NCBI GenBank assembly: GCA_015501055.1
Contig: JADNYV010000061.1
Location: 123,006 to 187,005, forward strand
DNA length: 64,000 nt
Reading direction: 5' to 3'
From: Mucidula mucida
Lineage: Eukaryota; Basidiomycota; Agaricomycetes; Agaricales; Physalacriaceae
The notes under the pieces are model-generated. The model did not search any database, was not told the DNA's origin, and was given only the letters and a program-made list of their open reading frames with translations. The position numbers were made by a program, and so were the translations under genes. Within the stretch, counting starts at the first letter, position 1; the number at the start of each line of letters is the position of its first letter. Positions 1-42,490 of this stretch are shown piece after piece.

Positions 1-1113
1 CTCGGAAGGTACGTCGTCTTGAGCACCATCGAGTGTAATGTGCTCATCAAAGAAATAAAGGCCTGCAAGACCTTCAAGCTGTTCTGCGGAGTCCCGGACA
101 TACTCAGTCCCAGGCTCAACATACCCTCCTAGATTCTGCTCGACTTCCTCCGTCCAGTCGTCAAGCTCGGAGTCGTGATCGTCAGCATTGGCATACCAAA
201 CGCCATCCTCGTGGTCCGTGACCTTGTTGGCTGAGTCGTCCGACTTCCCCTTCCCTTTTCCTTTCCCTCGGGGACCCTTCCCTTCCTTCCCACCTCCCTT
301 CGCCCAGCACTCCGCCTTGATGTGACCCTTCTTGTGGCAGTTATAACACTCCACATTTTTACTCCTCCTCTGCTGACCACTCGTGTTACCGCCGTTTGCG
401 TTGAACACGGCTTCTTTTGCCTCCTTCGGACGTGCCTTGATTGCACGACGGTCAGCCTCGTTGCTGATACCGCGGACGTAGGTGTCGACACTGAGAGGTG
501 TTGCGAGGAGGGATGATGCTGCCATGAGCGCAGCGAGATACGGGTCGTAGGATGTGGGAAGTGAGCCGAGGAGTATAGCGACGAAGTTGTCGTCGCCCGG
601 GTCTGCACCCATCGCGATAAGATCCTCGTGAATGGCCTGCAGCTTGGCGAGGTGAGTCTTCACATCACCATTTTCTGTGCATCGTTCGTCCTGAAGCTTG
701 AGGCGCAGGTCAACAACCATTATTTGTGAGCGCTTTTCGAACTCAGCTTTGACCTTTGCCCACATCAACGCCGCCGTCGCTTCACCCTTCACCTTCAAGA
801 ACAACGCATCCGAGATTGTCGATGCGATGCCTTGCTTGACGATGGCCTGCTCCGACCGCCATGCTCGGTTCTTGACATCCCACTTGTCGAGAGCCTCCTG
901 CTCCGCCGTTGTGACGGCCTTTGGATCTGCGGGGACCGGCTTCGTACCAGCTGGACTTGTTGTGGTGAGCTCCAGGTGGTGCCCAAGTATTGCAGCATCG
1001 GCTGCGAATACAAAGCGGTCGCGGTAGAGGACGTAGTTCGTACCATCCGCCTTGCAGTGCGGGATACGAGCGAACAGATCGTTGAGCTGTTTTGTGTTGG
1101 TGGTGGTCGACAT
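1..1113 (-). CDS. Copia Gag-Pol polyprotein, N-terminal 371 codons (partial)
   Basis: Gag portion of a Ty1/copia polyprotein; Gag packages element RNA in cytoplasmic particles. ATG at 1113 (minus). The frame stays open through 371 codons to the window edge. It begins MSTTTNTKQLNDLFARIPHC, closely matching the start of the polyprotein at 52393. A UBN2/DUF4219-type Gag domain fills about residues 10-230. A CCHC zinc knuckle (CYNCHKKGHIKAEC, near position 350 of the window) is followed by a K/G-rich linker and an acidic stretch. Protease, integrase and reverse transcriptase would lie to the left, outside the window. No disabling change is seen in the visible part. Shorter open frames on either strand here are shadows. 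Confidence 0.8.
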   Translation of the reverse strand, partial: MSTTTNTKQLNDLFARIPHCKADGTNYVLYRDRFVFAADAAILGHHLELTTTSPAGTKPVPADPKAVTTAEQEALDKWDVKNRAWRSEQAIVKQGIASTISDALFLKVKGEATAALMWAKVKAEFEKRSQIMVVDLRLKLQDERCTENGDVKTHLAKLQAIHEDLIAMGADPGDDNFVAILLGSLPTSYDPYLAALMAASSLLATPLSVDTYVRGISNEADRRAIKARPKEAKEAVFNANGGNTSGQQRRSKNVECYNCHKKGHIKAECWAKGGGKEGKGPRGKGKGKGKSDDSANKVTDHEDGVWYANADDHDSELDDWTEEVEQNLGGYVEPGTEYVRDSAEQLEGLAGLYFFDEHITLDGAQDDVPSE

Positions 1114-1172
1114 AGCGAGAGATTACGAGCGGGAGGGTAGCAAGTTATATGAGGATTGATTCAGGCAAGGTC

Positions 1173-1185
1173 GGGGCCCATAACC
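1173..1185 (-). other. Primer-binding site of copia 1 (initiator tRNA-Met anticodon arm type)
   Basis: On the minus strand GGTTATGGGCCCC follows the last CA of the LTR directly. It is complementary to the anticodon region of initiator tRNA-Met (GGGCCCATAACC), the half-tRNA priming mode known from Drosophila copia. The same PBS occurs at 52303. Confidence 0.7.
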
Positions 1186-1530
1186 TGTGAGAATTGGACG
1201 ATAAAACGAGGGCAAATGCACTGATGAATTCATCTCGAGTATATCCTCTTTATACAACTTGACGAGCACCGTACTACGAAACTGGCAGTAGACACGAAGA
1301 CCTGTAAACTAAATGACTGAGAATGCTAAGTAAGACTGCTGGAAACCATTGGTAAGTAAATTGAACTACGGGATAAGAAACAAACGGAAAACATATGAAG
1401 TGGCGGATTCGCGAGTTGAGTCCAGATTTAGAATGTGGATCCCGGAATGAATCGGTGGATCCACAAGAGAAGACGCGTCACGTCAACGCGTTTGTGAGGA
1501 CCGTTGGTCCGTCTGGCTTGAATGCCAACA
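1186..1530 (-). repeat. 5' LTR of copia 1 (345 bp)
   Basis: Minus-strand LTR starting TGTTGG and ending CTCACA, with TG...CA ends and the PBS adjoining. It contains a TATA-like TATAAAGAGG on the minus strand (around 1250), a plausible core promoter for the element. The partner LTR is outside the window, so the outer boundary at 1530 rests on the TG end alone. Confidence 0.65.
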
Positions 1531-2388
1531 GCCGGAAGGTCTTGCAAAAACCATTATCAGTTGCTAGTAAACATTATATAGTAAGCCTTCTTTCAACTGC
1601 CTTTGTTGCCCTTGTATTGAACATATTCTTTAACAGGCTTTCCCGTGAATACCACAACATCCAATATTGAACTATGCCCAAAATGTTGTGCATCAATTGT
1701 GTTGACTTCATACAGGCTACCTTTTAAACAGGACTTCACTAGAGTGTATTGCAACCCTTTTACCACAAATAAATCCTCCATAGAACGCAGCTTGAGCAAC
1801 ATGTCTGCTGAGTTAGCAACACTGACCGAGGAAATCAAGTTATTGGTTAGTGCACTAAAGATACACCACACCCATCTCGAGAGATATATCCATTACACCA
1901 CATGTTTCATTCAATTATCCCCCATCTGCCAACTTCCTACCAAAGTCCTTGGTATCATCTTTGCCGCGGCGTGTACTTCTTTTCAAAAGACTGAATACAG
2001 AACCCCGCTTTTCATCAGCCTTGTTTGCTCAAAATGGTGTGACATTTCCCTTTCCATGCCTGTCCTGTGGACAAACATCTATATCGCACCTTATTCACAT
2101 ACAGCTTGTGTACCTGTGTACCAACATTATCTCCAGCGCTGCGGAAGGATTCCAATTTGCATCAAGGTGGAAATTCCTGTCAAAGTCCACCCTCATCTGT
2201 ATGATGACAATGGTGATCATCCCTCCGGACTGATCTACAAGAATCATGTTGATGTTATGGCCGATGTCTATGAGAGCTCTGCTCAGTGGAGGCATGCCAA
2301 GTTTTATATAAACCTCGCAGGTATCAAACTTTTACAAGATCTTTCTGGTCTCTGGGCCGATGACACGGAGCAGTTGGAGGCACCCAAT

Positions 2389-2397
2389 CTCAATTCC
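2389..2397. repeat. Target-site duplication, left arm, element copy 1
   Basis: CTCAATTCC immediately left of the terminal TAGCCAGG; the identical 9-mer lies at 8101-8109. In the F-box reading frame the duplicated bases fall on the Asn-Leu-Asn-Ser codons. Confidence 0.95.
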
Positions 2398-2548
2398 TAG
2401 CCAGGTAACCTAGCCTACAAAGTATGAGCAAGACTCGATACAGTAGGCTAGGTAAACCGGCAGCAATAAAAAGCGTGAACATCTTTTGGCCATGTTTGGC
2501 ACAGTCGGATCAGTCGGTCCGTAAGCTATTATACCATATGCGGATGGC
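2398..2548 (+). repeat. Left TIR, element copy 1 (151 bp)
   Basis: Perfect inverted match to 7950-8100. Inside it, ACCTAGCCTAC (2408-2418) and its reverse complement GTAGGCTAGGT (2443-2453) form an internal inverted pair, a plausible double transposase-binding site. An ATG at 2424 and a donor-like GTAAGC at 2521 are also present. Confidence 0.95.
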
Positions 2549-2811
2549 GAAATCCGATGCCTTTCTTCTGACAAGCAAGACGTCAATCCGTACGGGTACC
2601 CCTTCTTCCTCGCGCCCATCTGGGTTCGGAATGCTCAATAAATCATATTCTACACCAAATCTGCGGCGTCTTGCGCCGGAATCGGTTGGGCAACACATCT
2701 TCTCCTTCTCTGGCACGGCAGCCCAAATCCGTTCTATACACTGCGGACACGCCGTCGCGCGTCGGCAGGGATGGGATCGTTCATCCCGGATTGAATCGTT
2801 CACCATCTCCC

Positions 2812-5545
2812 ATGCAGATTGATGCTCCCGGCGCGTCGTTTGATCCCTGCCCATCGCCCATCACTGATGTAGCAGATGCACATCCATCTCCATCACCAAA
2901 TACAACGAGCCTCCAAGCCGACGTGGATATGGATCAGACTGGTCTTGAGAGTGTAATGCCTGAGCCAGACCCTCCCTTCCCACCCTCTTCCTCCAGTATA
3001 CCAAAACTATCTTCCCTCTCGACTGTTCGCGATGGACGAAAGTTCCCTTACGCCGTCTCAACCCCAGGTGTACAGTCAAAGGCGCAGCTAGCGCTGGATG
3101 CACTCAAAGAGATCGATATCGCACCTGGCGAGTTTTTCTACACCATCATGGACCGCCGAAACGCGCAATTCGATAAGACGCAGAACGGTTTCTACCGTCC
3201 CGACGGCGTGTATCTGATATACATCCTCACACTGATGTGGTGGTGGGCTAAGAAGAGGGTCCAGACATGGATGTCTCCGTTTGCGCAGGAGTATGCTTGC
3301 GGACAGATCAAGGAAGAGTTCGAGGCTAAGATGGAGAGCATGCGTATCAACGTCTCGGACGTGACTGCCGACTTTCTTTCCTCCTGGGATGTTAACTCCA
3401 TCTTTGGATCTCGGCCGGACGATACAGGCGAGGAGGTGTCGATAACTGGAGGGGAGGCTATGCCATGGTGGTACGCGATGTTGACTGCCGCGACCACGGG
3501 CTCGTACTCGTCGGTAAACAAGGAGCATTATGCAGCTTTGGTCAGTGACCAAATCACGTACCGTCTATGTCTCTTACCTTTGACAACAGGCTCGGAATAT
3601 ATTGACGGCTCAAGCATTTCACGTCCGTTCGAATACGTGCTCCATGTATCAATTCATGTTTACCGTCTTTGCTTGGGCTACTGGCAGCTCAAAGAGAATG
3701 ATCGAAGCTCTCAATCACTCCGCTCTTTCCATGTCTTTTCCTACTGCTCTGAATACCATCTCCGCTCTTGCTACCCGCGCCGTTCAGCTAGGGAAAGCCT
3801 TTTCATTTGGACCTCACATGTTCACATACGACAACGTCAACTTCAGCTCCTCCATCTTCGTTGAACAGGTTCCGGGGTCAATGCCGAAAGTCCAATCAGG
3901 CACTTTTCCTGTATTGTACGAGCTCTGGGGCGTCCGACAAGCCTCAGATCTCCTACTACAGCCGATGTTGGACCGCCTCAAGAACGCTACTGATCTCACC
4001 TTCGCCGAGATACAGCCTCAGCGAGAAAATCAACGTTGCTATATGGCCCAATGCCATGTCACGATCGTAAAGACTCTGCTCCAATACGTCTCTGGCTTTA
4101 CGGAGACCAATGAATACACCTCTCACCCCAAGCTCCAACATATCCCTCGGCGCCCACTTCCCTTCCATTCCGTCAAGCGCTTCTACCCTCTCAAGGCATC
4201 GACCATCGAGGAAGCATCGATCGACGGAAACCTCTTGTTTCACGACGAAGTGTATATCAATCAGCTTGAACGCGATCCCGATGATCTTTCCGAGATGGCT
4301 ATTCCCATTTTCCCAGATCAGCTCACCTGTGCGCGGATTCGCGGCGCCCAGGCAGAGCGTGAAGGCGATATATCGGCATGGGAGACGCGCATGATCTTTC
4401 AGCTTGGGATTGGGCTATTTCATCTAATCATGAATCTGGCTTGGTGTCTTCTTCACAAACATCGGTTCAGCCACTCACAGCATGGTTCTCTGGCACACTA
4501 CTTCCTTGTTTTGAACAAGAAGCGTCTGGCAGGGGAGAAGCCGGACTACCATACTCTTATGGCTGCACTGGGGCAGATTCGGGACGGTCTACTGATGGAT
4601 GCCTGGCGCCAGAAGTGTGGATACGCGTCGCTGGCAGAGTTTTCCGCATCGAAGCCTACACCCGAGCCCTGCTGAAGATTGCAGTAGAGATCCTGAATGA
4701 ATTCGCAACACCGATCCCAGAACCACTGGATCCAAATGACGCGACTGAGACGAACCCCGCGAACAATGTGATCAATCAAAACACGCGTCTCCTCCTACGT
4801 GATCTGCTGTATCTCTGCGAGCTCACAACAGCTGTGTCGAGCGGTGATTTTGGATGTATTGAAGACATTCTACCGAACATCGCCGCCATTTTCCGTGGTG
4901 GTGGCTCTAACAACTACTGCACGGAGATTCTCCATCTACTTCACAACTTCAAGCGTGTGTGGACATCCGAGTTTGCGTAAGTCCTGTAGCCAATAGATTT
5001 CTTGTCTCGAGACTTATGTTTGCAGAGATATAATGCGCGATAACTTCCTGATGACGGTGTCTGGCCTACCAGAACATTTTATGCCGATCGACTTGAACAC
5101 TGAGCATCTCATTGGATACCTGAAGCAGTTGTTCTCGTCTAAAGGCCTTTACGGCTCATGGGACCGACTCGGCGAAGTCTCCGCAGCTATTGTCGAGCTA
5201 CAGGCTGTGAAAAAGCATTTCGGGGCTATGATGGATACATCGTATAAGAGCACTACAAAAACACCTGCAGATGTCTCATCCCTTGTTTGGAAGATCGCGG
5301 ATACTGTCCGGGAGTTGGAGGTACAGAAGGTCCTGGACAGTCGGGCGGGAAATTCAAGAGCCAAGGCTGCGCCAGACCTCCTTGCTGTTGGGCTGGCTAA
5401 GCTCGCGTCTTCGACACTCCGGACTTTCAACAAGAAGATGCGAGCATTCGTCAATGGTACTGGCTTTGATGTGGCAGAGGAGGAGGTCAATGAGCTTGAA
5501 GCAGCTCAATTCTCCTTCGATAGTGATATTAGCAATGATGATTGA
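2812..5545 (+). pseudogene. DUF6589-like putative transposase, copy 1 (frameshifted)
   Basis: Same gene as the open copy at 14541-17275. Exons are 2812-3540, 3590-4976 and 5026-5545, with introns 3541-3589 and 4977-5025 (GT-AG, 49 nt each). One base is missing near 4666, in the Glu-Ala codons that copy 2 reads as PTPEALLK. The frame therefore ends six bases later at TGA 4672-4674. The product would lose the last third, including the conserved Asp-Leu...Glu-His segment. All else matches copy 2 apart from isolated substitutions. The start is uncertain: the first in-frame ATG is 2812, but the frame is open upstream to a stop at 2569, and a short exon inside the TIR could splice in. If the two elements share a transposase, copy 1 would depend on copy 2. 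Confidence 0.75.
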
Positions 5546-5587
5546 ACATAATTAGATGTAAGTATCGTATACTGGACTCTGGAGTAA

Positions 5588-7852
5588 TTAACGACGTCGT
5601 GAAGGCGAATTTGTAACATCCCGTAGCGGCCGAATACGAAAGGTAAGACGGGGTACTTCCTCAATCTCGCTAGCCTTTGTACGCTTTGCCTTTGATGCAG
5701 GAGCGGCATAACTGCGCGGCCGCTTGAGCGAAATGGGGTTGACTGTGTTGAATTGAATAAGAAAGGAGTGTAATGGTCTAGCCCATGAGCGCTCCCAATC
5801 AGCTGTCTGCCCAAGATGCAACGATAGCATGGATGGTGATGCGAGAGCATCCGAGTCCGGACGCAGTTGAATAACGGACTTCATGTCCTGATCTGAAAGA
5901 ATGAGATATTCCGGGTAGACTGCACGCAGATCATCGTTGAGATACTCCTTGCGGCGCCATGCCTTGAGAAGCGGTGCAAGCTTCTCCTGAGAGGCAGTGG
6001 GACGGTACTGATTGCGAGTAATAACAGTGGACAACTCCACTGCCTCGACAGGTGCAGGATCGAGTGGACCGGGAAGGAAATCCTGGAGACGGAAGCCGTC
6101 GTGATGACGGTCACAGCAGAATGTACCATTGTACTTCAAGGCTGCAACAAAGAGGTCAGAATGCTATAAAGAACATGAAAGGAGGAATGTACCATCATCA
6201 GATGTATCATGAAAATAGTCACGTAGAAAGCGCCGAATACAAAAGCCAATGGCGAGGAGTTGAATCAACCTGATTGGTGCAAATCCGGCGCGCTCTTGCT
6301 TTGTAGACTTCTCGGTAAGTTTGGCACGGGGACGATCAGGATCATCTCCAAACTCATTCATGAAGTCCCCTAAACAGATTTCGTCTGCGTCGGCTGCCCA
6401 TGCCTCATAGAAAGTGATATATATCCCAATCTTGTCAATGATGCGAACGGCTCGGCCACCGCACTGTGTGCTGTAGGGTATATCTGCAGGTACATTGTTA
6501 TTGACCACGATGGCAACATCACGAAAATCAACGCCCTGGGTAGCATTGTGTCAAGGAGAGTTATTCTAGATGAGAGTAGACTCACCGTTGACTCGCCAGA
6601 CGTCAAAAATAGGATACGACAAGCACCCTCTGGATCTGTGAAAGCCTTATGGGTGCGACAAAGATATCTCTTTGACATTTTGCTGTAATAGTGTCGAATG
6701 ATCCCTTTCTTGCGGAGATTCGCAGGAAGGAATTCTGTCAAAGCTTTTGCAAGCGCCCGGGTCTGACCTTTTGTACGACAAAAGACAAGAACTCGAGGCT
6801 GCGTGATAGGATCTATATCACGAAGAAGACATTGGTAGTTGTTAACATCGTCGATTGATCCCTTGACCTGATGCATTGCATAGATCGTGTTCGGGCGGTT
6901 GACCGTGATGCGATGGGTTTGATGATCCGCAGCCAGGATACCAAGATTCTGGATGCTGGCTTCTACATGGGGAGGACAGGTTGCCGTCATGCCAAGCCAG
7001 GGGACGGAAGACGGGAACAGAGCCTTGATCTCGCTGAGCCTGCCCCAGGTTGGTCGAAAGGCGGGAAGACCATATTGACTGATACCCGCGTAGTGCGCAG
7101 TGTGTACCTCATCAACAAAGAAGTATCGCACATATTTTCGAAAAGCTGGGTTACGAAGATATTGACCCATCCTTGGGAGATGTCCCTGCGGATTGGTAAA
7201 GCATTGCTCAATTGTTACAATGAGATGGCGCGCTCTTCCTGGAGATCGCGTCGAAAAGTTGAAGACGTTCTCCTTTAGGACATTCTGAGTTACATGTTAC
7301 AGTAGAAATACTTCAAGTAGACTTACAGCCCAATACTCTGCATCGCGCGGTGTATCGTCATTGATGCAAACTGTAGGGATCCCATATTTATCATTGAAGA
7401 CTTGTGCCTGTAATCACGTCAATCAGAAGGTCGAGGACCGGGACACCATAGAACACAAGTACCTGTGTGATTTGCAGTCGCTGTAGGGGAGATATCGTAA
7501 TGGCGATGGAGAATACATGTTCCATGAGAAGAAGAAGCACCATCATGAGTGTCTTTCCCGATCCTGTTCCAGCAATAGCAAGCACGTCGCCCTTACGGGC
7601 ATAGATAGCAAGTGCGACCTCGAGTTGATTCTGCCGTGAAATCTCCATATGTAATGTTCTTTCCCAGACTAGGAGGCAGAAGCGCAAAGCAACTGTCTTT
7701 GGGTCTGGATCAAGGGTGTGAATGAAGTCCCACGGAACAAGGTCCCTCGGAAGGACGCGCATCCGGTCACATAAAGAGACCAAAGACGCGTCCAGTATAA
7801 CTTGTGTAGCTGCCACCTGGGACGCGTCCAACACCGCCAAAGGTGAAGACAT
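5588..7852 (-). CDS. RecQ-like DNA helicase of element copy 1
   Basis: Superfamily 2 ATP-dependent DNA helicase, translated sequence identical to the copy-2 gene at 12234-14498, where exon limits and motifs are given. Five exons on the minus strand with four introns of 42-57 nt; 688 aa. Walker A GTGSGKT, motif II DEVH, motif III GMTAT and motif VI QCGGRAVR are all intact. It is convergent with the DUF6589 gene; the two stop codons are 42 bp apart. Although the neighbouring gene is frameshifted here, the helicase remains open, which fits a very young copy. Its role in transposition is inferred from co-residence only. Confidence 0.8.
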
Positions 7853-7949
7853 AATTAGTTTATAGTATGATTACGTTTGAGACATGAAAAGAGTGTGGGG
7901 AGGGTTACCAGTGTCGAAATAAAATCTTGCAGGAGGAGGCGTAATTTTT

Positions 7950-8100
7950 GCCATCCGCATATGGTATAATAGCTTACGGACCGACTGATCCGACTGTGCC
8001 AAACATGGCCAAAAGATGTTCACGCTTTTTATTGCTGCCGGTTTACCTAGCCTACTGTATCGAGTCTTGCTCATACTTTGTAGGCTAGGTTACCTGGCTA
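7950..8100 (-). repeat. Right TIR, element copy 1 (151 bp)
   Basis: Perfect inverted copy of 2398-2548. The helicase start codon lies 97 bp inside it, so TIR and spacer probably hold the helicase promoter. Confidence 0.95.
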
Positions 8101-8109
8101 CTCAATTCC
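8101..8109. repeat. Target-site duplication, right arm, element copy 1
   Basis: CTCAATTCC, identical to 2389-2397; the F-box A reading frame resumes directly after it. Confidence 0.95.
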
Positions 8110-9253
8110 CTTATATTGGCAATGAAGGATGCTCAGGTTTCCAACATGTCCAGCCTCCCCAGCATTTTCAGTGCGGCGCCTTCCCTGACTGCCGTTAACC
8201 TTCTTGATCGTTGTGCTAGCCAACCATTTCTTTGAACAGATAGCCAACTACCTTGGGGACAGTTACAACGCGTTCAGACTAGTCAGGGGAATCCAGCGAA
8301 GCTGATGGATCTCGAAAATAATTTCCAAGATGGAGGGGGAAGAACACTTGTTCTCAATGAACCGCACGAGCGCTCAATAACAGAATTTTTCCTATCCCTT
8401 GAGATATCGTTCACACGCCACCTCACCACCCTTATCCTCAATTCGGAGTCCTGGAATGATGATGTGTTCGACTTTTTCGCCGACCTCGCCATTCCTACTC
8501 TCAAAAACCTTGTATTAATCTGTCGCAACGGACGAATCTATGACAACCCAATCGTCGCGCTGCCTCAATTCCTCCAGTCTTCGCAATGCCAACTGAGCAC
8601 GTTCCGTCTTGTCATGCACGGCCGGGGTGGTACATATACTGCACAACCAACGCTGGCGGACACTTTGGTTGATGCACTTCATGAGATGGCCCATCTCACA
8701 TATCTCCAGGTCATCGAAGCTCCTTCGGGACCGCCTCTAATTAACAACAGACTCTTCGAGAAGCTGTCCGCAGATACCTTCCTGCCCAAGTTGAAGTCTC
8801 TCGAACTGGTGTGGGCAGAGGATTGCCAGCCCGACAGAGAACTGCTCTCCGCTCTCTCAGCGCGCGCAGACGGTCGTCTCTCGTCTGTTGTTCTCGGTAT
8901 CCGTAACGGGGGCAACCTTGGACCGGATGTTCTGGTGTGTTTGCGGGGGCTGCGACAGAAGAATGTCCGAGCTACGCGCTGGTAGTGCTCTTTTTTGTTA
9001 TTAAGGGGCGGTTGAAGGAGCTATGAGGTTATTATTGGTTGGGGTTGTAGGATATGAATCACTGTCCGTCTGCACTGCCAAAATGCCCTAATCACTTCGT
9101 TCGTACACCCCGTGGCCCATGGCCCATGGCTGCCGATGACTGGGCACTTTACGTGAAAGACTATCCATTTAAATTCCACAGGCCGCTCTACGTCCTCTGA
9201 TGTGAGGTAATAGGTGCCACAGTGCCACACTGCGGCACAGCACAGCTAGTCCA

Positions 9254-9259
9254 TATAAA
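9254..9259 (+). promoter_or_regulatory. TATA box of F-box gene B
   Basis: TATAAA 54 bp upstream of the ATG at 9308 and only 15 bp upstream of the ATG at 9269. A matching TATAAA lies at 21849-21854 before paralogue B'. The spacing favours 9308 as the start, since transcription would begin after 9269. The rest of 8986-9253 shows only repeats of the GGCCCATGG type and no gene. Confidence 0.45.
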
Positions 9260-9307
9260 GCTTCAGCAATGACGGCTGTTTCTCATCCTGACCTCCACCC
9301 AGCGACA

Positions 9308-10492
9308 ATGGAACGTCTACCCAATGAACTGATCTACCACATCATCGACCTCGTTGTTGAAGCCTCCGACAGGAGGTCTCTTCACCAACTCAGTCTGGTC
9401 GACAAGGCGTTTTCAGTGTACGCGCGCCAATGCTTATTCCAGGACCTATCCATAAAGACCTGTCCCGAAATACACATCCCGTGGTGCGTCAACCGGAGTA
9501 AATACGTCGGAGCATGCGATATCCACTGCATCAAAGAGCTAGCACCGGTCTTGAAAGCGCGTGCGCCTGCTTCAACCATACCCCGCACGATACGCACCTT
9601 GACTTTGGACGGAAGCAGAATTATTGACGACACGTTTTCGTTCCAGGAGATAGAGGAGCATACGGGAGGCATGGATGATGAACGTGTTACGGCCCCGGTT
9701 TTGGGGTACTTCGAAGCGGTCCAGGAATTGCGGCTGTTACATGTCCCTCTATACCCCTTCTCGTACTGGGCGTTGTTTCGATGGCGCCCATTAACTCTTC
9801 TGTCATCGGTCCGGACTCTTGTCTTGGACAACACGAGATTCTACGGAGGACCTCCCGCGCTGCACTCCTTCATTTCTAGAATGCCAAATCTCCAGAGTCT
9901 GTATATGAATCGCGTTAGGTGGGCCGGGAAACAGAGTCGCTGGCCGGGGTACCCAGACGACGTGCCAGGTTGGGCTGCCATTTTGGAAGGTTCACCGACC
10001 ATTATGTGGAGCCAAACAGTCAGAGAGACTATGTTCCCCCAACAACGGAAGCCTATCCCCTCTTCCCCCAGTCACCTTATCCTTCACCTCGAAGGTTCAG
10101 TACGCGCGCTCTCTTGGATCATGATGCCGATGCTATCGGAAATGCTGAGCAAGCTTTCCTCGCTCGAAGTACACACGAGGAACAGTGGTGGAGACGACGT
10201 GGCAGTGTTCTTGCTGAGACGACTGCTGGCGAGCGTGCCCAGCGTAGTTGATTTGACCTTTTCCTGGCATCACACGTGCTCGATAAGCACCAATCTCTTC
10301 CACCCCGATCTAAGCCTGTGCACTTCGCTTCGCACTTTGCGCCTTCAATTGATGTGTAAGCATGAGCGAACGACATGGCCCTTATGCAGGGAATGGCTTC
10401 ATTCCGCGGCGCGCTCGATACGTGATTCGCCGAGTCTCCAACATGTCCAGGTCACAATGGATGATCCGACCATTGATGACATGTCGCGTTAG
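9308..10492 (+). CDS. F-box/LRR-like protein B
   Basis: Putative substrate adaptor of an SCF ubiquitin ligase. An N-terminal F-box motif (MERLPNELIYHIIDLVVEAS) is followed by a domain typical of Agaricomycete F-box-like proteins with LRR-like leucine periodicity. The single-exon frame gives 394 aa from 9308; an alternative upstream ATG at 9269 adds 13 residues, but the TATAAA at 9254 argues for 9308. It lies head-to-tail after gene A, and the same order recurs at 19935/21888, so A-B is a duplicated gene pair. Against B', this frame ends at a TAG after DMSR (10490-10492) while the homologous sequence continues downstream for some 30 codons without a stop. B may therefore be C-terminally shortened. 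Substrate unknown. Confidence 0.7.
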   Translation: MERLPNELIYHIIDLVVEASDRRSLHQLSLVDKAFSVYARQCLFQDLSIKTCPEIHIPWCVNRSKYVGACDIHCIKELAPVLKARAPASTIPRTIRTLTLDGSRIIDDTFSFQEIEEHTGGMDDERVTAPVLGYFEAVQELRLLHVPLYPFSYWALFRWRPLTLLSSVRTLVLDNTRFYGGPPALHSFISRMPNLQSLYMNRVRWAGKQSRWPGYPDDVPGWAAILEGSPTIMWSQTVRETMFPQQRKPIPSSPSHLILHLEGSVRALSWIMMPMLSEMLSKLSSLEVHTRNSGGDDVAVFLLRRLLASVPSVVDLTFSWHHTCSISTNLFHPDLSLCTSLRTLRLQLMCKHERTTWPLCREWLHSAARSIRDSPSLQHVQVTMDDPTIDDMSR

Positions 10493-10838
10493 GAATTCAG
10501 CGAGGCGCCTGCTTTCGACGTTGACAAGGACTTGTGTGCAGAAATATTCGGTTCTTTCTTACTAGATAGTTATCGGTTATGGTTGTTTAGATTGATGTAC
10601 CTCGTAATGGATTTAAGGACTTGTACATCCAACCCAGTGATTAATCACTGTCAAAATATACAAGACTTCCAGCTAAACGGATAACGGAACGCTACCACTA
10701 TAATGCTGATCGTTGGACTCCTAATGAGACAAGACAGTTTCTATAAGGGAGCCGCTAGTCGCCGAAAGAAAGCTCCTCTCGCCTCGCCGACGGCGCAATG
10801 GCAGCCCACTACTGGACGTCGAGCGAATTGCAAATTGC
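10493..10838. other. Intergenic region between F-box B and coilin-like gene 3' ends
   Basis: The first 100 bp retain homology to the C-terminal coding end of B'. The rest is AT-rich, with no supported gene; both flanking genes end toward it. Confidence 0.5.
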
Positions 10839-13800
10839 TCATGACGCTGAACCAGCTATGAAGCGCATACTCTGCGCAACAATATCGCCAAACGACAGCG
10901 TCTCATCCAGCGGTTCCTCCTCCGCATCCTCAAACCCAGGCCGTGCGAGCTTCCGAACAGTGCATCCATCTTCTGCGAGAGCAACAACGCGCGCGAGTGT
11001 GAGCATAATCTCTGGAGAATACGTTGCCGTGTTTAGTGCCAGTTCCTAAAATGAAATCCGCCTTAGTCGTCAAATAAAAGTACATCGCGAGTAGTTCACA
11101 CACCTTCCACGCTAACACCCCGCCGACCTGGACATCGGTGGACGCAGCCGGTGCTTTAGAATCGAACAACGCTTCGGCATCTTTCCACAAAAGCTCCTCC
11201 GGTGAAGGTGCAGGATCGCCATAATTCAAAGACACGTTCTCGTTCGCCATTTCAACATCGAGAGCATATTCCTCGACGTATGCCGCAGACTCATCTTTCG
11301 TTTTCCTCTTGTTTTTCCTCGTCTTGCCCCACATACCGGCTTCGACGTCTACACTTGTCACAAAGCTGTTGCTCGGCAGGCTCTCTCTCTCCGATGGAGG
11401 AATGAGGCGCTGCTGATTGAACGGGAACGACGGCGTGTGTGCGGATTTTGGCGTAGATATCGAGGACGATGGTTCGTCTGAATTGAATATGATCTTGGCA
11501 GTCGCGGGTTTCTCCAAGTGTAACCTTTCTTCTTGTTCTTATTCCCCAGGGAGAACATTGACAGATTCAGGGCGCTGTCGCCATTAGGTTCACCTAGTGG
11601 TTGGAGATTTGTAGTGGAGAGGTTCTTCGGTGGGGGTGGAGGAGTCTCGAAGGGTAACCCTTGTTCGTGCTGCTTCTTAACACGACGGCGTAAGTTTCGA
11701 CTACGGGTTTGGTGCGATCCTTGACCAGGTGGGACGTGGTGTTCATTGGACGTTACAGTACTAACGTCACTACGTTATAACGTCGGTATTAGCGATATGA
11801 GAAAACACTCACAAGGGCAACAGATGTGGTGGCTTTCTACCAATGGGTTTTCTGATTGGTGGACCATCTGAGCTGATGTCAGATTCAGAGTCTGAGGAAG
11901 ATGATGACGAGGAAGATGTATGCGCATATTTCGCCTTTTTCGCGGATTTTTGGGCTGGGAATAACGTCAATACGCGGGTCAAAGATAGCCAGGTAACCTA
12001 GCCTACAAAGTATGAGCAAGACTCGATACAGTAGGCTAGGTAAACCGGCAGCAATAAAAAGCGTGAACATCTTTTGGCCATGTTTGGCACAGTCGGATCA
12101 GTCGGTCCGTAAGCTATTATACCATATGCGGATGGCAAAAATTACGCCTCCTCCTGCAAGATTTTATTTCGACACTGGTAACCCTCCCCACACTCTTTTC
12201 ATGTCTCAAACGTAATCATACTATAAACTAATTATGTCTTCACCTTTGGCGGTGTTGGACGCGTCCCAGGTGGCAGCTACACAAGTTATACTGGACGCGT
12301 CTTTGGTCTCTTTATGTGACCGGATGCGCGTCCTTCCGAGGGACCTTGTTCCGTGGGACTTCATTCACACCCTTGATCCAGACCCAAAGACAGTTGCTTT
12401 GCGCTTCTGCCTCCTAGTCTGGGAAAGAACATTACATATGGAGATTTCACGGCAGAATCAACTCGAGGTCGCACTTGCTATCTATGCCCGTAAGGGCGAC
12501 GTGCTTGCTATTGCTGGAACAGGATCGGGAAAGACACTCATGATGGTGCTTCTTCTTCTCATGGAACATGTATTCTCCATCGCCATTACGATATCTCCCC
12601 TACAGCGACTGCAAATCACACAGGTACTTGTGTTCTATGGTGTCCCGGTCCTCGACCTTCTGATTGACGTGATTACAGGCACAAGTCTTCAATGATAAAT
12701 ATGGGATCCCTACAGTTTGCATCAATGACGATACACCGCGCGATGCAGAGTATTGGGCTGTAAGTCTACTTGAAGTATTTCTACTGTAACATGTAACTCA
12801 GAATGTCCTAAAGGAGAACGTCTTCAACTTTTCGACGCGATCTCCAGGAAGAGCGCGCCATCTCATTGTAACAATTGAGCAATGCTTTACCAATCCGCAG
12901 GGACATCTCCCAAGGATGGGTCAATATCTTCGTAACCCAGCTTTTCGAAAATATGTGCGATACTTCTTTGTTGATGAGGTACACACTGCGCACTACGCGG
13001 GTATCAGTCAATATGGTCTTCCCGCCTTTCGACCAACCTGGGGCAGGCTCAGCGAGATCAAGGCTCTGTTCCCGTCTTCCGTCCCCTGGCTTGGCATGAC
13101 GGCAACCTGTCCTCCCCATGTAGAAGCCAGCATCCAGAATCTTGGTATCCTGGCTGCGGATCATCAAACCCATCGCATCACGGTCAACCGCCCGAACACG
13201 ATCTATGCAATGCATCAGGTCAAGGGATCAATCGACGATGTTAACAACTACCAATGTCTTCTTCGTGATATAGATCCTATCACGCAGCCTCGAGTTCTTG
13301 TCTTTTGTCGTACAAAAGGTCAGACCCGGGCGCTTGCAAAAGCTTTGACAGAATTCCTTCCTGCGAATCTCCGCAAGAAAGGGATCATTCGACACTATTA
13401 CAGCAAAATGTCAAAGAGATATCTTTGTCGCACCCATAAGGCTTTCACAGATCCAGAGGGTGCTTGTCGTATCCTATTTTTGACGTCTGGCGAGTCAACG
13501 GTGAGTCTACTCTCATCTAGAATAACTCTCCTTGACACAATGCTACCCAGGGCGTTGATTTTCGTGATGTTGCCATCGTGGTCAATAACAATGTACCTGC
13601 AGATATACCCTACAGCACACAGTGCGGTGGCCGAGCCGTTCGCATCATTGACAAGATTGGGATATATATCACTTTCTATGAGGCATGGGCAGCCGACGCA
13701 GACGAAATCTGTTTAGGGGACTTCATGAATGAGTTTGGAGATGATCCTGATCGTCCCCGTGCCAAACTTACCGAGAAGTCTACAAAGCAAGAGCGCGCCG

Positions 13801-16800
13801 GATTTGCACCAATCAGGTTGATTCAACTCCTCGCCATTGGCTTTTGTATTCGGCGCTTTCTACGTGACTATTTTCATGATACATCTGATGATGGTACATT
13901 CCTCCTTTCATGTTCTTTATAGCATTCTGACCTCTTTGTTGCAGCCTTGAAGTACAATGGTACATTCTGCTGTGACCGTCATCACGACGGCTTCCGTCTC
14001 CAGGATTTCCTTCCCGGTCCACTCGATCCTGCACCTGTCGAGGCAGTGGAGTTGTCCACTGTTATTACTCGCAATCAGTACCGTCCCACTGCCTCTCAGG
14101 AGAAGCTTGCACCGCTTCTCAAGGCATGGCGCCGCAAGGAGTATCTCAACGATGATCTGCGTGCAGTCTACCCGGAATATCTCATTCTTTCAGATCAGGA
14201 CATGAAGTCCGTTATTCAACTGCGTCCGGACTCGGATGCTCTCGCATCACCATCCATGCTATCGTTGCATCTTGGGCAGACAGCTGATTGGGAGCGCTCA
14301 TGGGCTAGACCATTACACTCCTTTCTTATTCAATTCAACACAGTCAACCCCATTTCGCTCAAGCGGCCGCGCAGTTATGCCGCTCCTGCATCAAAGGCAA
14401 AGCGTACAAAGGCTAGCGAGATTGAGGAAGTACCCCGTCTTACCTTTCGTATTCGGCCGCTACGGGATGTTACAAATTCGCCTTCACGACGTCGTTAATT
14501 ACTCCAGAGTCCAGTATACGATACTTACATCTAATTATGTTCAATCATCATTGCTAATATCACTATCGAAGGAGAATTGAGCTGCTTCAAGCTCATTGAC
14601 CTCCTCCTCTGCCACATCGAAGCCAGTACCATTGACGAATGCTCGCATCTTCTTGTTGAAAGTCCGGAGTGTCGAAGACGCGAGCTTAGCCAGCCCAACA
14701 GCAAGGAGGTCTGGCGCAGCCTTGGCTCTTGAATTTCCCGCCCGACTGTCCAGGACCTTCTGTACCTCCAACTCCCGGACAGTATCCGCGATCTTCCAAA
14801 CAAGGGATGAGACATCTGCAGGTGTTTTTGTAGTGCTCTTATACGATGTATCCATCATAGCCCCGAAATGCTTTTTCACAGCCTGTAGCTCGACAATAGC
14901 TGCGGAGACTTCGCCGAGTCGGTCCCATGAGCCGTAAAGGCCTTTAGACGAGAACAACTGCTTCAGGTATCCAATGAGATGCTCAGTGTTCAAGTCGATC
15001 GGCATAAAATGTTCTGGTAGGCCAGACACCGTCATCAGGAAGTTATCGCGCATTATATCTCTGCAAACATAAGTCTCGAGACAAGAAATCTATTGGCTAC
15101 AGGACTTACGCAAACTCGGATGTCCACACACGCTTGAAGTTGTGAAGTAGATGGAGAATCTCCGTGCAGTAGTTGTTAGAGCCACCACCACGGAAAATGG
15201 CGGCGATGTTCGGTAGAATGTCTTCAATACATCCAAAATCACCGCTCGACACAGCTGTTGTGAGCTCGCAGAGATACAGCAGATCACGTAGGAGGAGACG
15301 CGTGTTTTGATTGATCACATTGTTCGCGGGGTTCGTCTCAGTCGCGTCATTTGGATCCAGTGGTTCTGGGATCGGTGTTGCGAATTCATTCAGGATCTCT
15401 ACTGCAATCTTCAGCAGGGCCTCGGGTGTAGGCTTCGATGCGGAAAACTCTGCCAGCGACGCGTATCCACACTTCTGGCGCCAGGCATCCATCAGTAGAC
15501 CGTCCCGAATCTGCCCCAGTGCAGCCATAAGAGTATGGTAGTCCGGCTTCTCCCCTGCCAGACGCTTCTTGTTCAAAACAAGGAAGTAGTGTGCCAGAGA
15601 ACCATGCTGTGAGTGGCTGAACCGATGTTTGTGAAGAAGACACCAAGCCAGATTCATGATTAGATGAAATAGCCCAATCCCAAGCTGAAAGATCATGCGC
15701 GTCTCCCATGCCGATATATCGCCTTCACGCTCTGCCTGGGCGCCGCGAATCCGCGCACAGGTGAGCTGATCTGGGAAAATGGGAATAGCCATCTCGGAAA
15801 GATCATCGGGATCGCGTTCAAGCTGATTGATATACACTTCGTCGTGAAACAAGAGGTTTCCGTCGATCGATGCTTCCTCGATGGTCGATGCCTTGAGAGG
15901 GTAGAAGCGCTTGACGGAATGGAAGGGAAGTGGGCGCCGAGGGATATGTTGGAGCTTGGGGTGAGAGGTGTATTCATCGGTCTCCGTAAAGCCAGAGACG
16001 TATTGGAGCAGAGTCTTTACGATCGTGACATGGCATTGGGCCATATAGCAACGTTGATTTTCTCGCTGAGGCTGTATCTCGGCGAAGGTGAGATCAGTAG
16101 CGTTCTTGAGGCGGTCCAACATCGGCTGTAGTAGGAGATCTGAGGCTTGTCGGACGCCCCAGAGCTCGTACAATACAGGAAAAGTGCCTGATTGGACTTT
16201 CGGCATTGACCCCGGAACCTGTTCAACGAAGATGGAGGAGCTGAAGTTGACGTTGTCGTATGTGAACATGTGAGGTCCAAATGAAAAGGCTTTCCCTAGC
16301 TGAACGGCGCGGGTAGCAAGAGCGGAGATGGTATTCAGAGCAGTAGGAAAAGACATGGAAAGAGCGGAGTGATTGAGAGCTTCGATCATTCTCTTTGAGC
16401 TGCCAGTAGCCCAAGCAAAGACGGTAAACATGAATTGATACATGGAGCACGTATTCGAACGGACGTGAAATGCTTGAGCCGTCAATATATTCCGAGCCTG
16501 TTGTCAAAGGTAAGAGACATAGACGGTACATGATTTGGTCACTGACCAAAGCTGCATAATGCTCCTTGTTTACCGACGAGTACGAGCCCGTGGTCGCGGC
16601 AGTCAACATCGCGTACCACCATGGCATAGCCTCCCCTCCAGTTATCGACACCTCCTCGCCTGTATCGTCCGGCCGAGATCCAAAGATGGAGTTAACATCC
16701 CAGGAGGAAAGAAAGTCGGCAGTCACGTCCGAGACGTTGATACGCATGCTCTCCATCTTAGCCTCGAACTCTTCCTTGATCTGTCCGCAAGCATACTCCT

Positions 16801-17988
16801 GCGCAAACGGAGACATCCATGTCTGGACCCTCTTCTTAGCCCACCACCACATCAGTGTGAGGATGTATATCAGATACACGCCGTCGGGACGGTAGAAACC
16901 GTTCTGCGTCTTATCGAATTGCGCGTTTCGGCGGTCCATGATGGTGTAGAAAAACTCGCCAGGTGCGATATCGATCTCTTTGAGTGCATCCAGCGCTAGC
17001 TGCGCCTTTGACTGTACACCTGGGGTTGAGACGGCGTAAGGGAACTTTCGTCCATCGCGAACAGTCGAGAGGGAAGATAGTTTTGGTATACTGGAGGAAG
17101 AGGGTGGGAAGGGAGGGTCTGGCTCAGGCATTACACTCTCAAGACCAGTCTGATCCATATCCACGTCGGCTTGGAGGCTCGTTGTATTTGGTGATGGAGA
17201 TGGATGTGCATCTGCTACATCAGTGATGGGCGATGGGGAGGGATCAAACGACGCGCCGGGAGCATCAATCTGCATGGGAGATGGTGAACGATTCAATCCG
17301 GGATGAACGATCCCATCCCTGCCGACGCGCGACGGCGTGTCCGCAGTGTATAGAACGGATTTGGGCTGCCGTGCCAGAGAAGGAGAAGATGTGTTGCCCA
17401 ACCGATTCCGGCGCAAGACGCCGCAGATTTGGTGTAGAATATGATTTATTGAGCATTCCGAACCCAGATGGGCGCGAGGAAGAAGGGGTACCCGTACGGA
17501 TTGACGTCTTGCTTGTCAGAAGAAAGGCATCGGATTTCGCCATCCGCATATGGTATAATAGCTTACGGACCGACTGATCCGACTGTGCCAAACATGGCCA
17601 AAAGATGTTCACGCTTTTTATTGCTGCCGGTTTACCTAGCCTACTGTATCGAGTCTTGCTCATACTTTGTAGGCTAGGTTACCTGGCTAGGTCAAAGAGA
17701 GGAAAACAAGAAATTACCTGCCGGCGTTGCTTTTCTCTTCAAACCTAGCAGATTTCCCTTCTGTTTAACGATGATCAAGTCGCCCTCCCGAACAATGCTG
17801 CCGGTCTCTAAGATGTCCAGGAGTTCAAAACCATCCAATTCCAAAATTAGATTTTCCGGCTTGGTTTTCAAAGTCGGAATGGTGTTACAGACCGACTTTT
17901 TCAAGTTGGTTATTGATTCATTTTCCGGACATGAGAACCAGGCCTTGGTGCCCGGCAGAGGAGAATCGGCCTGTATTCGAAAACGCAT
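10839..17988 (-). CDS. Coilin-like protein, intron 1 carries element copy 2
   Basis: Coilin scaffolds nuclear Cajal bodies and binds snRNP assembly factors. Five exons (minus): 17988-17718, 11954-11813, 11760-11594, 11531-11104, 11045-10839. They join in frame to 404 aa. The N-terminal about 85 residues (start MRFRIQADSPLPG, later IVREGDLIIVKQK) resemble the ubiquitin-like coilin N-terminus. The middle is Ser/Asp-, Lys- and Arg-rich. The C-terminus (GGVLAWK, ELALNTATYSPEIML) resembles the atypical Tudor-like coilin domain. Intron 1 was originally 50 nt (GTAATT...CCCAG); the 5704-bp element plus 9-bp duplication makes it 5763 nt. No coding base is disrupted, but splicing such an intron in a fungus is doubtful, so expression may be lost. 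An exon-3 start at 11769 is also in frame. Identification rests on remembered family features. Confidence 0.6.
11977..11985. repeat. Target-site duplication, left arm, element copy 2
   Basis: GGTCAAAGA directly left of TAGCCAGG; identical 9-mer at 17690-17698. Confidence 0.95.
11986..12136 (+). repeat. Left TIR, element copy 2 (151 bp)
   Basis: Perfect match to the copy-1 TIRs; inverted partner at 17539-17689. Holds the same internal inverted pair ACCTAGCCTAC / GTAGGCTAGGT. Confidence 0.95.
12234..14498 (+). CDS. RecQ-like DNA helicase of element copy 2
   Basis: Superfamily 2 ATP-dependent DNA helicase, 688 aa. Exons 12234-12623, 12679-12759, 12802-13500, 13551-13893, 13945-14498 join in frame with GT-AG introns. 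Visible motifs: Walker A GTGSGKT at residues 95-101, motif II DEVH at 215-218, motif III GMTAT at 255-259, motif IV-like VLVFCRTKGQTRALA, and arginine-finger motif VI QCGGRAVR at 414-421. Order and wording fit the RecQ family. The C-terminal third is cysteine-poor and ends in a basic tail; no canonical RecQ zinc-binding or HRDC domain is obvious. A TATA-like ACTATAAAC precedes the ATG by about 13 bp. Elsewhere, mobile helicases occur in Helitrons (Pif1-like) and as telomere-linked RecQ helicases; here the helicase is carried by a TIR element beside a putative transposase. Function in strand processing or repair at excision sites is inference. Confidence 0.85.
14541..17275 (-). CDS. DUF6589-like protein, putative transposase of the element (copy 2, open)
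   Basis: Open reading of 878 aa over three exons (minus): 17275-16547, 16497-15110, 15060-14541, with two 49-nt introns. The first ~100 residues are Ser/Pro-rich and probably disordered. The rest resembles the fungal/animal DUF6589 family. Conserved-looking acidic positions are D324 (MFTYDNVNFSS), D486 (IFPDQLTCARIRGA) followed by H521 in GLFHLIMNLAW, and D728/E732 in IDLNTEHLIGYLK. This D...D-xx-H...E layout is what RNase H-fold transposases with a helical insertion (hAT, MULE, KDZ) show; I infer a DDE transposase. Nothing else in the element could catalyse transposition. Start uncertain: 17275 is the first ATG, but the frame is open 234 bp further upstream, and an exon in the TIR may precede it. 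The E assignment is the weakest point. Confidence 0.65.
17539..17689 (-). repeat. Right TIR, element copy 2 (151 bp)
   Basis: Perfect inverted copy of 11986-12136; the DUF6589 gene begins inside or just beyond it. Confidence 0.95.
17690..17698. repeat. Target-site duplication, right arm, element copy 2
   Basis: GGTCAAAGA, identical to 11977-11985, within coilin-like intron 1. Confidence 0.95.
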
Positions 17989-19868: not shown

Positions 19869-19934
19869 GTAAGTCTTTATTTGACTTCGTTCGCGCTTCC
19901 TTGAACATGTATGTATCTTTCAGTCAGGCTGCTC

Positions 19935-21557
19935 ATGGACGCAACTAACGTTGAGCTATGCCCAAGATGTCGCGCATCACTTGCACTGACTTCATACACG
20001 CTGCCGTTTGAAGAGGACTTCGCTAGAGGATTTTACAACCCTTCGAGCACGGAAAAGTCCTCCATAGAGAGCAGCTTGAGCGATGCGTCCGCTGACTTAG
20101 CGACGCTGGCCGGGGAAATTCAACGTGTCGAGTTATTGCTTAGTGCGCTGAAGACACACCACGCCCGTCTTGAGAGGTATATCCATCGCACTACGCGTTT
20201 CATTCAATTTTCCCCCATCCGCCAACTTCCTACCGAGATACTTGGTATCATCTTTGCTTCGGCGTGTTCTTCCTGTCAAGAAGACGAATACAAAACTCCG
20301 CTTTCTATAAGCCTGGTCTGTTCCAAGTGGCGTCATATTGCCATGTCTACCCCTACTCTATGGACGAACATCTACGTGGCCCCGTACTCGAGCGCCCGTG
20401 GCCTGCCCGTCTACCAATATTTTCTTCAACGATGTGGGATGATCCCAATCTCTGTCAAGGTGGAAGTTCCTGCCAGAAACAACCCTTATCAAGATGATGA
20501 TGGTGTTATTCCCTTCGAAGGGACCTACGAGCATCATCTTGACGTTATGGGCGACATTTATGCGAGCTTTGCTCAGTGGAAGCATGCCGAGTTCCATATG
20601 AAGCAAGTGGCAGACATCTTACTTTTGGAAGATCTGGATGATCGCTGGCGTCCCCAGATGAAGCAATCGAATTGTCCCATTCTTGAATCCCTTACGTTGG
20701 CGATAAGTGTTTATACTGAACCGTTCCGCCTGCCTAGAGTTTTCAGAGATGCTCTGCTTTTGTCTTCTGTCAACTTTATCGACTGTCGAGAGAGCGACGC
20801 TTTGTTGCAGATACCTGGTCTACCTTGGGAAAATATACAGCGCGTTCAAACCAATCAGCGGGATACGGCGAGCTTGCGGTACATGCAAAACAACAGAGAC
20901 TTTCAGGATGGAATACTCGTTCTCAATGCAACAAATCAAACATCGAATTATTATACCCATTCCCCGCGAGCATGTCCGCTGAATATTACCACCCTTATCC
21001 TTGACCGGCCCTGGGCTTATGCCCTGTGTCAATTTCTTCGCTACGTGTCCATTCCCACCCTTGAAGCTCTCACAATAATCTTCCGCGATCCCGAAAACAC
21101 ACACCCCCGTTGTTTTAACCCGCTCCTCTCACTGCCGCTGTTTCTGGGTCATACCCATCGCAGACTGAATATGTTCAGTCTTATAATGTACGGCTGGTAT
21201 AACGACAACGAGTGGGAACCGACGCTGGCGAACAGTCTGGTTGATGCGCTTCATGAGATGGGCCATCTCAAATCCCTACAGGTCATTGAATCTAATAATG
21301 GACCGCCTCTGCTCAGCAAGAGACTGTTCGAGGAGCTTTCCGCTGATGCTCTCCTCCCCGGGTTGACGTCTCTTGAATTGGTTTGGGCGGAGAGCCGCCA
21401 ACCCGATGAAGAATTGCTCTCCGCACTCTCGTTGCGCGCGGATGGTCGTCTCTCATCCGTTGTCCTCGGTATCCGTGATGGGGGCAACCTTGGACCGGAA
21501 GTCCTAGAGTGCATGCGAAGTTTGCGAAAGAGTAATGTTCGAGCTATGTGCTGGTAG
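19935..21557 (+). CDS. F-box/LRR-like protein A' (intact paralogue)
   Basis: Putative SCF ubiquitin-ligase adaptor, 540 aa, single coding exon. N-terminus MDATNVELCPRCRASLALTS, then a helical segment (about 50-90). An F-box-like core follows (SPIRQLPTEILGIIFASACS, about 95-115), then SLVCSKWRHIAMSTPTLWTNI typical of Agaricomycete F-box proteins and a long LRR-like C-terminus ending SNVRAMCW. The ATG at 19935 is chosen because a likely 5'-UTR intron (GTAAGT at 19869 to TTTCAG at 19923) ends just before it; the upstream ATG at 19911 falls inside that intron. Gene A at 1645 is its broken duplicate. B' follows in the same direction. Substrate unknown. Confidence 0.75.
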   Translation: MDATNVELCPRCRASLALTSYTLPFEEDFARGFYNPSSTEKSSIESSLSDASADLATLAGEIQRVELLLSALKTHHARLERYIHRTTRFIQFSPIRQLPTEILGIIFASACSSCQEDEYKTPLSISLVCSKWRHIAMSTPTLWTNIYVAPYSSARGLPVYQYFLQRCGMIPISVKVEVPARNNPYQDDDGVIPFEGTYEHHLDVMGDIYASFAQWKHAEFHMKQVADILLLEDLDDRWRPQMKQSNCPILESLTLAISVYTEPFRLPRVFRDALLLSSVNFIDCRESDALLQIPGLPWENIQRVQTNQRDTASLRYMQNNRDFQDGILVLNATNQTSNYYTHSPRACPLNITTLILDRPWAYALCQFLRYVSIPTLEALTIIFRDPENTHPRCFNPLLSLPLFLGHTHRRLNMFSLIMYGWYNDNEWEPTLANSLVDALHEMGHLKSLQVIESNNGPPLLSKRLFEELSADALLPGLTSLELVWAESRQPDEELLSALSLRADGRLSSVVLGIRDGGNLGPEVLECMRSLRKSNVRAMCW

Positions 21558-21887
21558 TGGGCATTTCGAGATAGAAGGCATGTGGAGAAACATTGTACAG
21601 GTACGCTCGCGTCTGAGAGGACCAGAAGAGGGCTGACTGTTTGCTCAGAATACGTAGTTAGAGTCGAAAAGTGATCGCCTCCTGTTTGACCAATAGACTT
21701 CTTGACCTGGATGTGAGAGTAGTCAAAAGTCAAAATCGGTAGTGTTTCATTGATATCGATGGCTAGTTGACCAAGCCATGGCCCGCGGCCCACAATGGCT
21801 AAGCCTCTATGATAACGACTGTCAGCAGCGGGCCATACAGGTGGCGCATATAAACCTTTCCCACTGCTCCCTTCCTGACCCATAACA

Positions 21888-41200: not shown

Positions 41201-41954
41201 TGCAATAGCTGTCCCAGTCCATCCAGAACAAACGCTCTCCCTCTTCCAACTTCTCTTCTACGTCTTCTCCTTCATCTTCCGGCGAGTTATACTCGGGTAG
41301 GTAGCCGCAACGGTCTGGGCATTGATCAAAAGACAACGTGGATTCCGTCCAGTTGATCGTGGGGTTGTGATATTGTAACCAATCTAGCCCCAAAAAGATG
41401 CTTGTTTTGCCAGGATTGGTGACGGCCAACTCAATCTTTTCTGCGTGATCACCGATCTTCATCCGGACCTCCACAAAACCTTCGATTGCTCCTCCCTCGT
41501 TTAGGGTTCCATCCGCATTGTAGACAGGGAGCTTGACCGGTAACTCCTTGATCGGGAGTCCGTTCTTCTCGACGAATTCTTTATTGACACAAGAACCCGT
41601 TGCTCCACTGTCAAGAAGGGCACTTGTTTCCCATTCAGAGCCTGTGTGTACGCTCTCTATAGTTACTCGGAGTTTCATGTCCTGCCCCTTTGTTCCCCGG
41701 ATGTACTTCCTTGACTTTTTCAACTCCGTCACAACTTCCACCGCAGCTTCCTTCGTCAACGCTCTGATTGCCATCACTTTCTCCTCTGTCGCTTCTCTCT
41801 CTCTCCGCTCCGGCATCCATGCTCTCAAAATTCCCACTGCTCTCGGCACTTCATCCTCTCTTAGCCGTTGTGCGATCCACTCGGGCGTATTTGGCTCAAA
41901 TCTTTCTTTCGCAGGTTTTGTTGGTGAAGTTGTCGATGAAAATAAATTCTGCAT
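38300..41954 (-). pseudogene. Gypsy B pol with chromodomain (broken)
   Basis: Protease with intact-looking [16 protein letters not shown] (~41600) and RT start ([20 protein letters not shown], ~40930). A nonsense TGA follows MKMDI near 40768, where relatives have Arg (CGA to TGA). RT YLDN box at ~40590, RNase H 40090-39850, integrase zinc finger and core (39500-38900, with LTKWSCIIPTHTTLT), and integrase C-terminal/chromodomain (WEVEKVVNSWKYRGGFQYKV, ~38490-38430). Chromodomains of this type target integration to modified histones. Several frame breaks; non-functional. Confidence 0.75.
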
Positions 41955-42490
41955 CTGACAATTCTTCCCTTGGCAACTGCTCCGGCAGGACTGCGTCTAC
42001 TGCGGGAGCTTCGCAAAACCCAACTCTTCGGCCAACTTCTTCTTCTCCTCGTCATTCATTGTGGTCCACAAACCCCAAATCTGTTGGGGTCAACCCTTCT
42101 TGGGACAGAACCTGCTTACGTGGCCGTGTTCGCCACAGCTGAAGCAAAGTCCCCTTCGACATGCGTTGTTGATGTCCATCAGCCTGCCGGCTCCTCCATA
42201 GGTAACGCCGGTGGCATCTCGTCGTGTGATTGGCGTCGGGGGTGGATTCGTAGGATTGGCTCTCGATGTAGCCGCCTGCGGAGCTTGGGGCCGGACCTGC
42301 ATGCCGGACCTCTTGCTCGCCATTTGCCTTCTCCACAGTTGATCAATCTGGATAATCTGTGCCTTCCAATCCTTGTATTTCACCGGCAACCCGTCTCGGC
42401 TGCCATAGATCTGGTCAATGATCTTCTCGTTGACATTGGTCTCGAGAAGACGTACAACATATGTGTCATCCTTCGAGTATTCCGCCTGAG

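Follow-up and report, generated by a model that had tools for sequence, protein, structure and literature searches.

A two-gene DNA transposon of Mucidula mucida with a DUF6589 protein and a RecQ-like helicase, most likely a family of AcademH

Background

Why should a transposon carry a RecQ-type helicase of its own? The question, which also touches the KolobokH elements, is raised by a 64,000-nucleotide (nt) stretch of the genome of the fungus Mucidula mucida (the window), in which two inverted 5.7-kb units, copies 1 and 2, lie 3.9 kb apart and each encode a DUF6589 protein and a RecQ-like helicase; this system may serve to approach it. An earlier note, made from the sequence alone, took the units for an active transposon with terminal inverted repeats (TIRs), and the near-identical copies, target site duplications (TSDs) and empty loci support recent activity. 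We conclude that the window element is a two-gene DNA transposon of the cut-and-paste type and most likely belongs to AcademH. The chief novelty lies in PF20231 (DUF6589), a family of unknown function in Pfam, for which a role as transposase is now likely; DUF6589 genes are many in mushroom genomes and risk being counted as host genes.

Structure of the window copies

Self-alignment and reading of the sequence confirmed the two inverted units with perfect TIRs of 151 base pairs (bp). The inverted arms (4666-8100 with 11986-15420, and 2396-4669 with 15418-17691) are 100% complementary as rounded by the tool, and the alignment of copy 1 with copy 2 contains four substitutions and one gap (99.9% identity), the same count as in the earlier note. 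The TIRs extend over 155 nt at 99% in each copy; read by eye, those of copy 1 match perfectly over 151 bp and first differ at base 152 (position 2549). Each copy is enclosed by its own perfect 9-bp duplication, different for the two copies, and open reading frames (ORFs) together with Pfam scans bear out the convergent DUF6589 and RecQ-like helicase genes (Table 1). Because the two window copies, 3.9 kb apart, are each other's nearest relatives among four full copies in the genome, the pair suits a recent, undated, local transposition.

Copies and target site duplications in the genome

The 59.9-Mb assembly (1047 contigs) was searched with the TIR, as the earlier note had proposed; 40 of 50 candidate places were scored, and all copy numbers are therefore lower bounds. 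The search found at least four full copies, namely the two in the window, C495:8535-14237 and C283:263892-269609, and a fifth full-length copy is divided between the two ends of contig C788. The window copies differ from those on C495 and C283 by 26-33 substitutions, and the latter two differ from each other by 29. Short relatives are also present in two size classes, one of 880 bp, with two subgroups that are about 84% alike, and one of 1037-1048 bp; they have the outer bases TAGCCAGGTAACC in common with the full copies.

Across all DUF6589 elements and their short relatives, perfect 9-bp TSDs were found at 19 of the 21 end pairs examined. A first set gave 15 of 16, with one mismatch in C394, whose flanks are nearly the same as those of C377, so that the two are possibly one insertion. 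Nine further ends, with the partner missing or not identified, were examined singly, and one of these (C427) was later paired. The duplicated 9-mers are varied and, by eye, have no common sequence. Transitions account for 43 of the 46 sites that vary among the four full copies, and 28 are in a CpG context, a bias that may suit methylation and decay of the copies.

Some other loci are of interest. Contig C788 (C788:1-16208; L055, L031, L032) starts and ends inside one element at the same point (element positions 1-4293 and 4293-5718) and can be read as a loop that consists of one element and a further 10,490 bp; either the assembler collapsed two direct copies flanking that segment, or the circle is real. 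On contigs C86 (L036) and C323 (L038) the same type of TIR end adjoins the same flank, the orientation being opposite. Finally, a 5-kb element on C300 (L035:966-5988) was considered as an autonomous source of the short elements and rejected: it is an element of the 880-bp type split by an insertion, with the outer 9-bp TSD GGCATCGTT retained around it, and tblastn found neither the DUF6589 nor the helicase gene there. From its motif, we take the protein in this insertion to be hAT-like.

Empty loci

Uninterrupted loci were sought by joining the flanks of each full copy without the element and without one TSD, the matches being judged from the search tables, and were found for three of the four full copies. 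For copy 1, the 200-nt junction matches C391:8460-8659 at 100% and C265 at 99%, with further matches on C426 (96%) and C67 (76%). The C495 copy has an empty locus on C194 (99% over 200 nt), and copy 2 has empty loci on C265 and C67, both at 83% over 198 nt; for the C283 copy the genome search found none. The loci at 99-100% are probably alleles or very recent duplicates, and those at 76-83% look like paralogues. The C86 and C323 ends perhaps represent two haplotypes within the assembly, which would account for allelic empty loci.

Copy 1 also interrupts a copy of an F-box-like gene. The two parts of this gene, once joined, align across the junction to a paralogue (19911-21560), with identity at 1110 of 1608 aligned bases; the paralogue scores as F-box-like at 2.3e-6 in Pfam.

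The DUF6589 protein as a predicted transposase

In copy 2, the modelled splicing of the DUF6589 gene gives an open frame of 925 amino acids (aa), not counted from an assigned start codon, and two of its exons match PF20231 at 3.4e-70 and 7.8e-15. In copy 1 a gap of 1 nt relative to the other copies, near 4666-4670, breaks the frame. The DUF6589 gene of C495 also contains a 1-nt gap, and its helicase gene contains two stops. Both frames of C283 are free of stops and gaps; a 14-nt insertion in this copy precedes an in-frame ATG that begins an open stretch of 878 aa. According to the gene models, both frames are thus open in two full copies, copy 2 and C283. The silent and changing differences among the four full copies give no proof of selection.

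Out of 7995 scored, the protein search found 164 DUF6589 relatives with E <= 0.001 and listed the 120 best; the named relatives among these belong to Armillaria, Lactarius, Mycena, Lyophyllum and other genera, presumably all Agaricomycetes. With the DUF6589 protein of C738 as query there were 464 relatives, again with the best 120 listed. Two structural models of DUF6589 proteins align best (VIA-align) to the transposases of the P element, Hermes, ISCth4 and Transib and to RAG1, at 6-15% sequence identity. Foldseek searches of the models against the PDB and against viral models gave no match at E <= 0.001. In the DUF6589 alignment D207, D367 and D578 are conserved, the third member of this putative acidic triad being a candidate. 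On these models, DUF6589 would likely be a DDE/D transposase with an RNase H fold.

The RecQ-like helicase and its pairing with DUF6589

Taken singly, only the first helicase exon has a Pfam match (DEAD, 6e-6); the other exons have none. The spliced protein matches DEAD at 3.9e-9 and Helicase_C at 1.1e-7, and it matches TIGR00614 (recQ_fam) at 8.6e-21, yet below that model's own cut-off. Its nearest relative in the PDB is the Bloom helicase (1.2e-9).

The same partnership is found outside the window family. A helicase gene is likewise present in three other DUF6589 families of this genome (about 21-25% identical), with convergent layout in C205/C230 and C689 and head-to-head layout in C738. 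The C205 and C230 elements (6436 bp, 99.6% alike) have TSDs GGTCTTCCT and GATTGATGG, and the 5.0-kb C738 element (L053:2983-7989) has TGATCCTCC. The helicase of C738 has relatives at 8.6e-33 and DEAD and Helicase_C by Pfam; its N-terminal ATP-binding part was not found at C738, and the head-to-head layout could be either a rearrangement or a different native layout. C689 (L054:292-6845) has a 178-bp perfect TIR with nested end repeats, and no 9-bp TSD was found at the place tested. With the window helicase as tblastn query, C205/C230 and C689 score weakly (1.7e-8 and 2.0e-7). Relatives of the window helicase score better against them, a bacterial RecQ being the best for C205 (3.3e-23), and C689 reaching 1.5e-21; the C205 helicase ORFs tested had no match in Pfam. 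Within the window family, C427 (L045:1682-4057; TSD CGTTGCACA) is an internally deleted relative, in which the 5' parts of the helicase and DUF6589 genes abut.

For comparison across species, 43 of 44 helicase matches (the bacterial one left out; one without a species name) were set against 56 of the 120 listed DUF6589 matches, hand-picked and mostly species-named, from the window-family query. Nine helicases agree with a DUF6589 match in species and in contig size to the base pair, which we take to mean the same contig: those of Lyophyllum atratum, Mycena floridula, M. crocata, M. rebaudengoi, Armillaria borealis, Gymnopilus dilepis, Pholiota molesta, Panaeolus papilionaceus and Lactarius deliciosus. 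The Gymnopilus contig is 22,490 bp long and its two locus tags are six apart. The earlier note had proposed that helicase and transposase cooperate. Since the genes occur together in four diverged families and on same-size contigs in nine species, such cooperation is plausible.

A possible mechanism

In the mechanism that we propose, the DUF6589 transposase would bind and pair the TIRs of about 155 bp and cleave at the TAG...CTA ends, by a chemistry suggested by its predicted fold. The element would be excised, as in cut-and-paste movement, and its ends would be joined to the target through a 9-bp staggered cut, producing the 9-bp TSD. The RecQ-like helicase may be a dedicated accessory factor that probably unwinds the ends, or resolves or repairs strand-transfer or donor-gap intermediates. 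The short elements, whose outer ends are the same, could be mobilised in trans. Recent copies, two of them with both frames open in the models, together with empty loci in the same assembly make this a practical system for asking what the helicase is for.

Features of the window

Table 1. Coordinates of the two element copies and of the interrupted gene, in window positions
Feature	Position	Strand	Remarks
Element copy 1	2398..8100	+	5703 bp; strand is that of the DUF6589 gene
Left TIR, copy 1	2398..2552	+	151 bp perfect, 155 bp at 99%
Right TIR, copy 1	7946..8100	-	
TSD, copy 1 left	2389..2397		CTCAATTCC, perfect 9 bp
TSD, copy 1 right	8101..8109		CTCAATTCC, perfect 9 bp
DUF6589 gene, copy 1	2671..5545	+	modelled 49-nt introns 3541-3589 and 4977-5025, read by eye
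RecQ-like helicase gene, copy 1	5588..7852	-	
Element copy 2	11986..17689	-	5704 bp; inverted; both frames open
TIR on helicase side, copy 2	11986..12140	+	
TIR on DUF6589 side, copy 2	17535..17689	-	
TSD, copy 2 left	11977..11985		GGTCAAAGA, perfect 9 bp
TSD, copy 2 right	17690..17698		GGTCAAAGA, perfect 9 bp
RecQ-like helicase gene, copy 2	12234..14498	+	modelled, five exons, introns of 55, 42, 50 and 51 nt; 688 aa
DUF6589 gene, copy 2	14541..17416	-	spliced frame is open; intron positions (16546-16498, 15109-15061) derived from those of copy 1
F-box-like gene copy, 5' part	1645..2397	+	interrupted by copy 1
F-box-like gene copy, 3' part	8110..8988	+	

The F-box-like gene and a second gene are present twice in the window, at 1645-10492 and 19905-23270, about 76-79% alike in stretches; copy 1 lies inside the first of these units and copy 2 just past it. 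Other mobile elements are also represented. A long open frame of a copia-type retrotransposon with RVT_2, gag and integrase parts (Pfam) occupies 52363-57159 (+), and further retrotransposon pieces lie at 1-1122 (-, copia gag), 40773-41996 (-, aspartyl protease/reverse transcriptase) and 50084-51598 (+, RNase H/integrase zinc). At 60602-61456 (-) there is a CxC2 cysteine cluster associated with KDZ transposases (1.9e-31).

Assignment to AcademH and alternative explanations

AcademH was reportedly defined by Kojima in 2020, in Mob DNA 11:15, and our literature search found no description of the Academ transposase; the comparison was therefore made with the published description and not with a transposase sequence. 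As described in citing papers, AcademH is, like the window element, a DNA transposon with a helicase, with TSDs of 9 or 10 bp (PMC10045372) and a low copy number in Basidiomycota, Ascomycota and Mucoromycota (PMC10799480), and we found no difference between the two. As the element agrees with these descriptions in its helicase, TSD length, host group and copy number, the earlier suggestion of a possibly undescribed superfamily is probably wrong. The testable traits fit AcademH and exclude KolobokH, and we therefore judge the element to be a likely new family of AcademH, in which DUF6589 would be the AcademH-type transposase.

The best of the alternatives is a separate, unnamed superfamily, in which DUF6589 is not homologous to the Academ transposases and the helicase and 9-bp TSD arose in parallel. 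Three points weigh in its favour and against AcademH: the link to Academ comes from description and not from transposase sequence, the term DUF6589 was not found in the literature searched by that word, and Pfam still gives no function for PF20231. On the other side stands the agreement with AcademH, as citing papers describe it, in accessory gene, TSD length, host group and copy number, and we regard separate origin as unlikely. We give the same low credence to its wider form, a mushroom-wide DUF6589 superfamily apart from Academ, whose RNase H-fold transposase would be obligatorily joined to its own RecQ helicase, with unwinding as a part of transposition.

Long TIRs with 9-bp TSDs are likewise compatible with a Mutator-like element, here one that had captured a host RecQ gene, and ISCth4, which we take to belong to a bacterial family related to Mutator, is among the structural matches of the DUF6589 model. 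However, the Pfam scans gave no MULE domain, although absence from such a listing is no proof, and the helicase partner is present in deeply diverged DUF6589 families and is therefore not a one-off capture, which leaves this origin improbable. Less probable still is a KolobokH element, that is, a Kolobok transposase with a RecQ helicase. KolobokH is described as a DNA transposon known only from fungi and carrying a RecQ helicase (PMC9587614), as the window element does in its fungal host, but Kolobok duplications are TTAA-specific and 4 bp long (PMC9587614), against perfect 9-bp TSDs of varied sequence at most of our end pairs; we rejected it on the TSD and on the gene layout, the window element having its genes on opposite strands. 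An assembly artefact or ordinary segmental inverted duplication, which the inverted, 99.9% identical and closely spaced copies might suggest, is refuted, since the two copies are set in different flanks with a TSD for each, and since other copies and empty loci occur in the genome. Those other copies, whose flanks and 9-mers differ, and the empty loci make chance very unlikely as well.

Comparison with other known systems

Helitrons, which have neither TIRs nor TSDs, are ruled out by the 151-bp TIRs and 9-bp TSDs of the window element. The P element, hAT (Hermes), ISCth4 and Transib/RAG1 resemble DUF6589 in the predicted RNase H-fold DDE/D core and in a similar overall arrangement, in contrast to the low sequence identity in the structural alignments; we know of no helicase partner for any of them. 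AcademX is described as having TSDs of 3 or 4 bp and encoding a nuclease, and the different TSD lengths are there related to the encoded helicase (AcademH) and nuclease (AcademX) (PMC10045372). The window element, in contrast, has 9-bp TSDs and a helicase, and Pfam scans of its ORFs gave no nuclease domain. If the assignment to AcademH is right, AcademX and the window element belong to the same superfamily.

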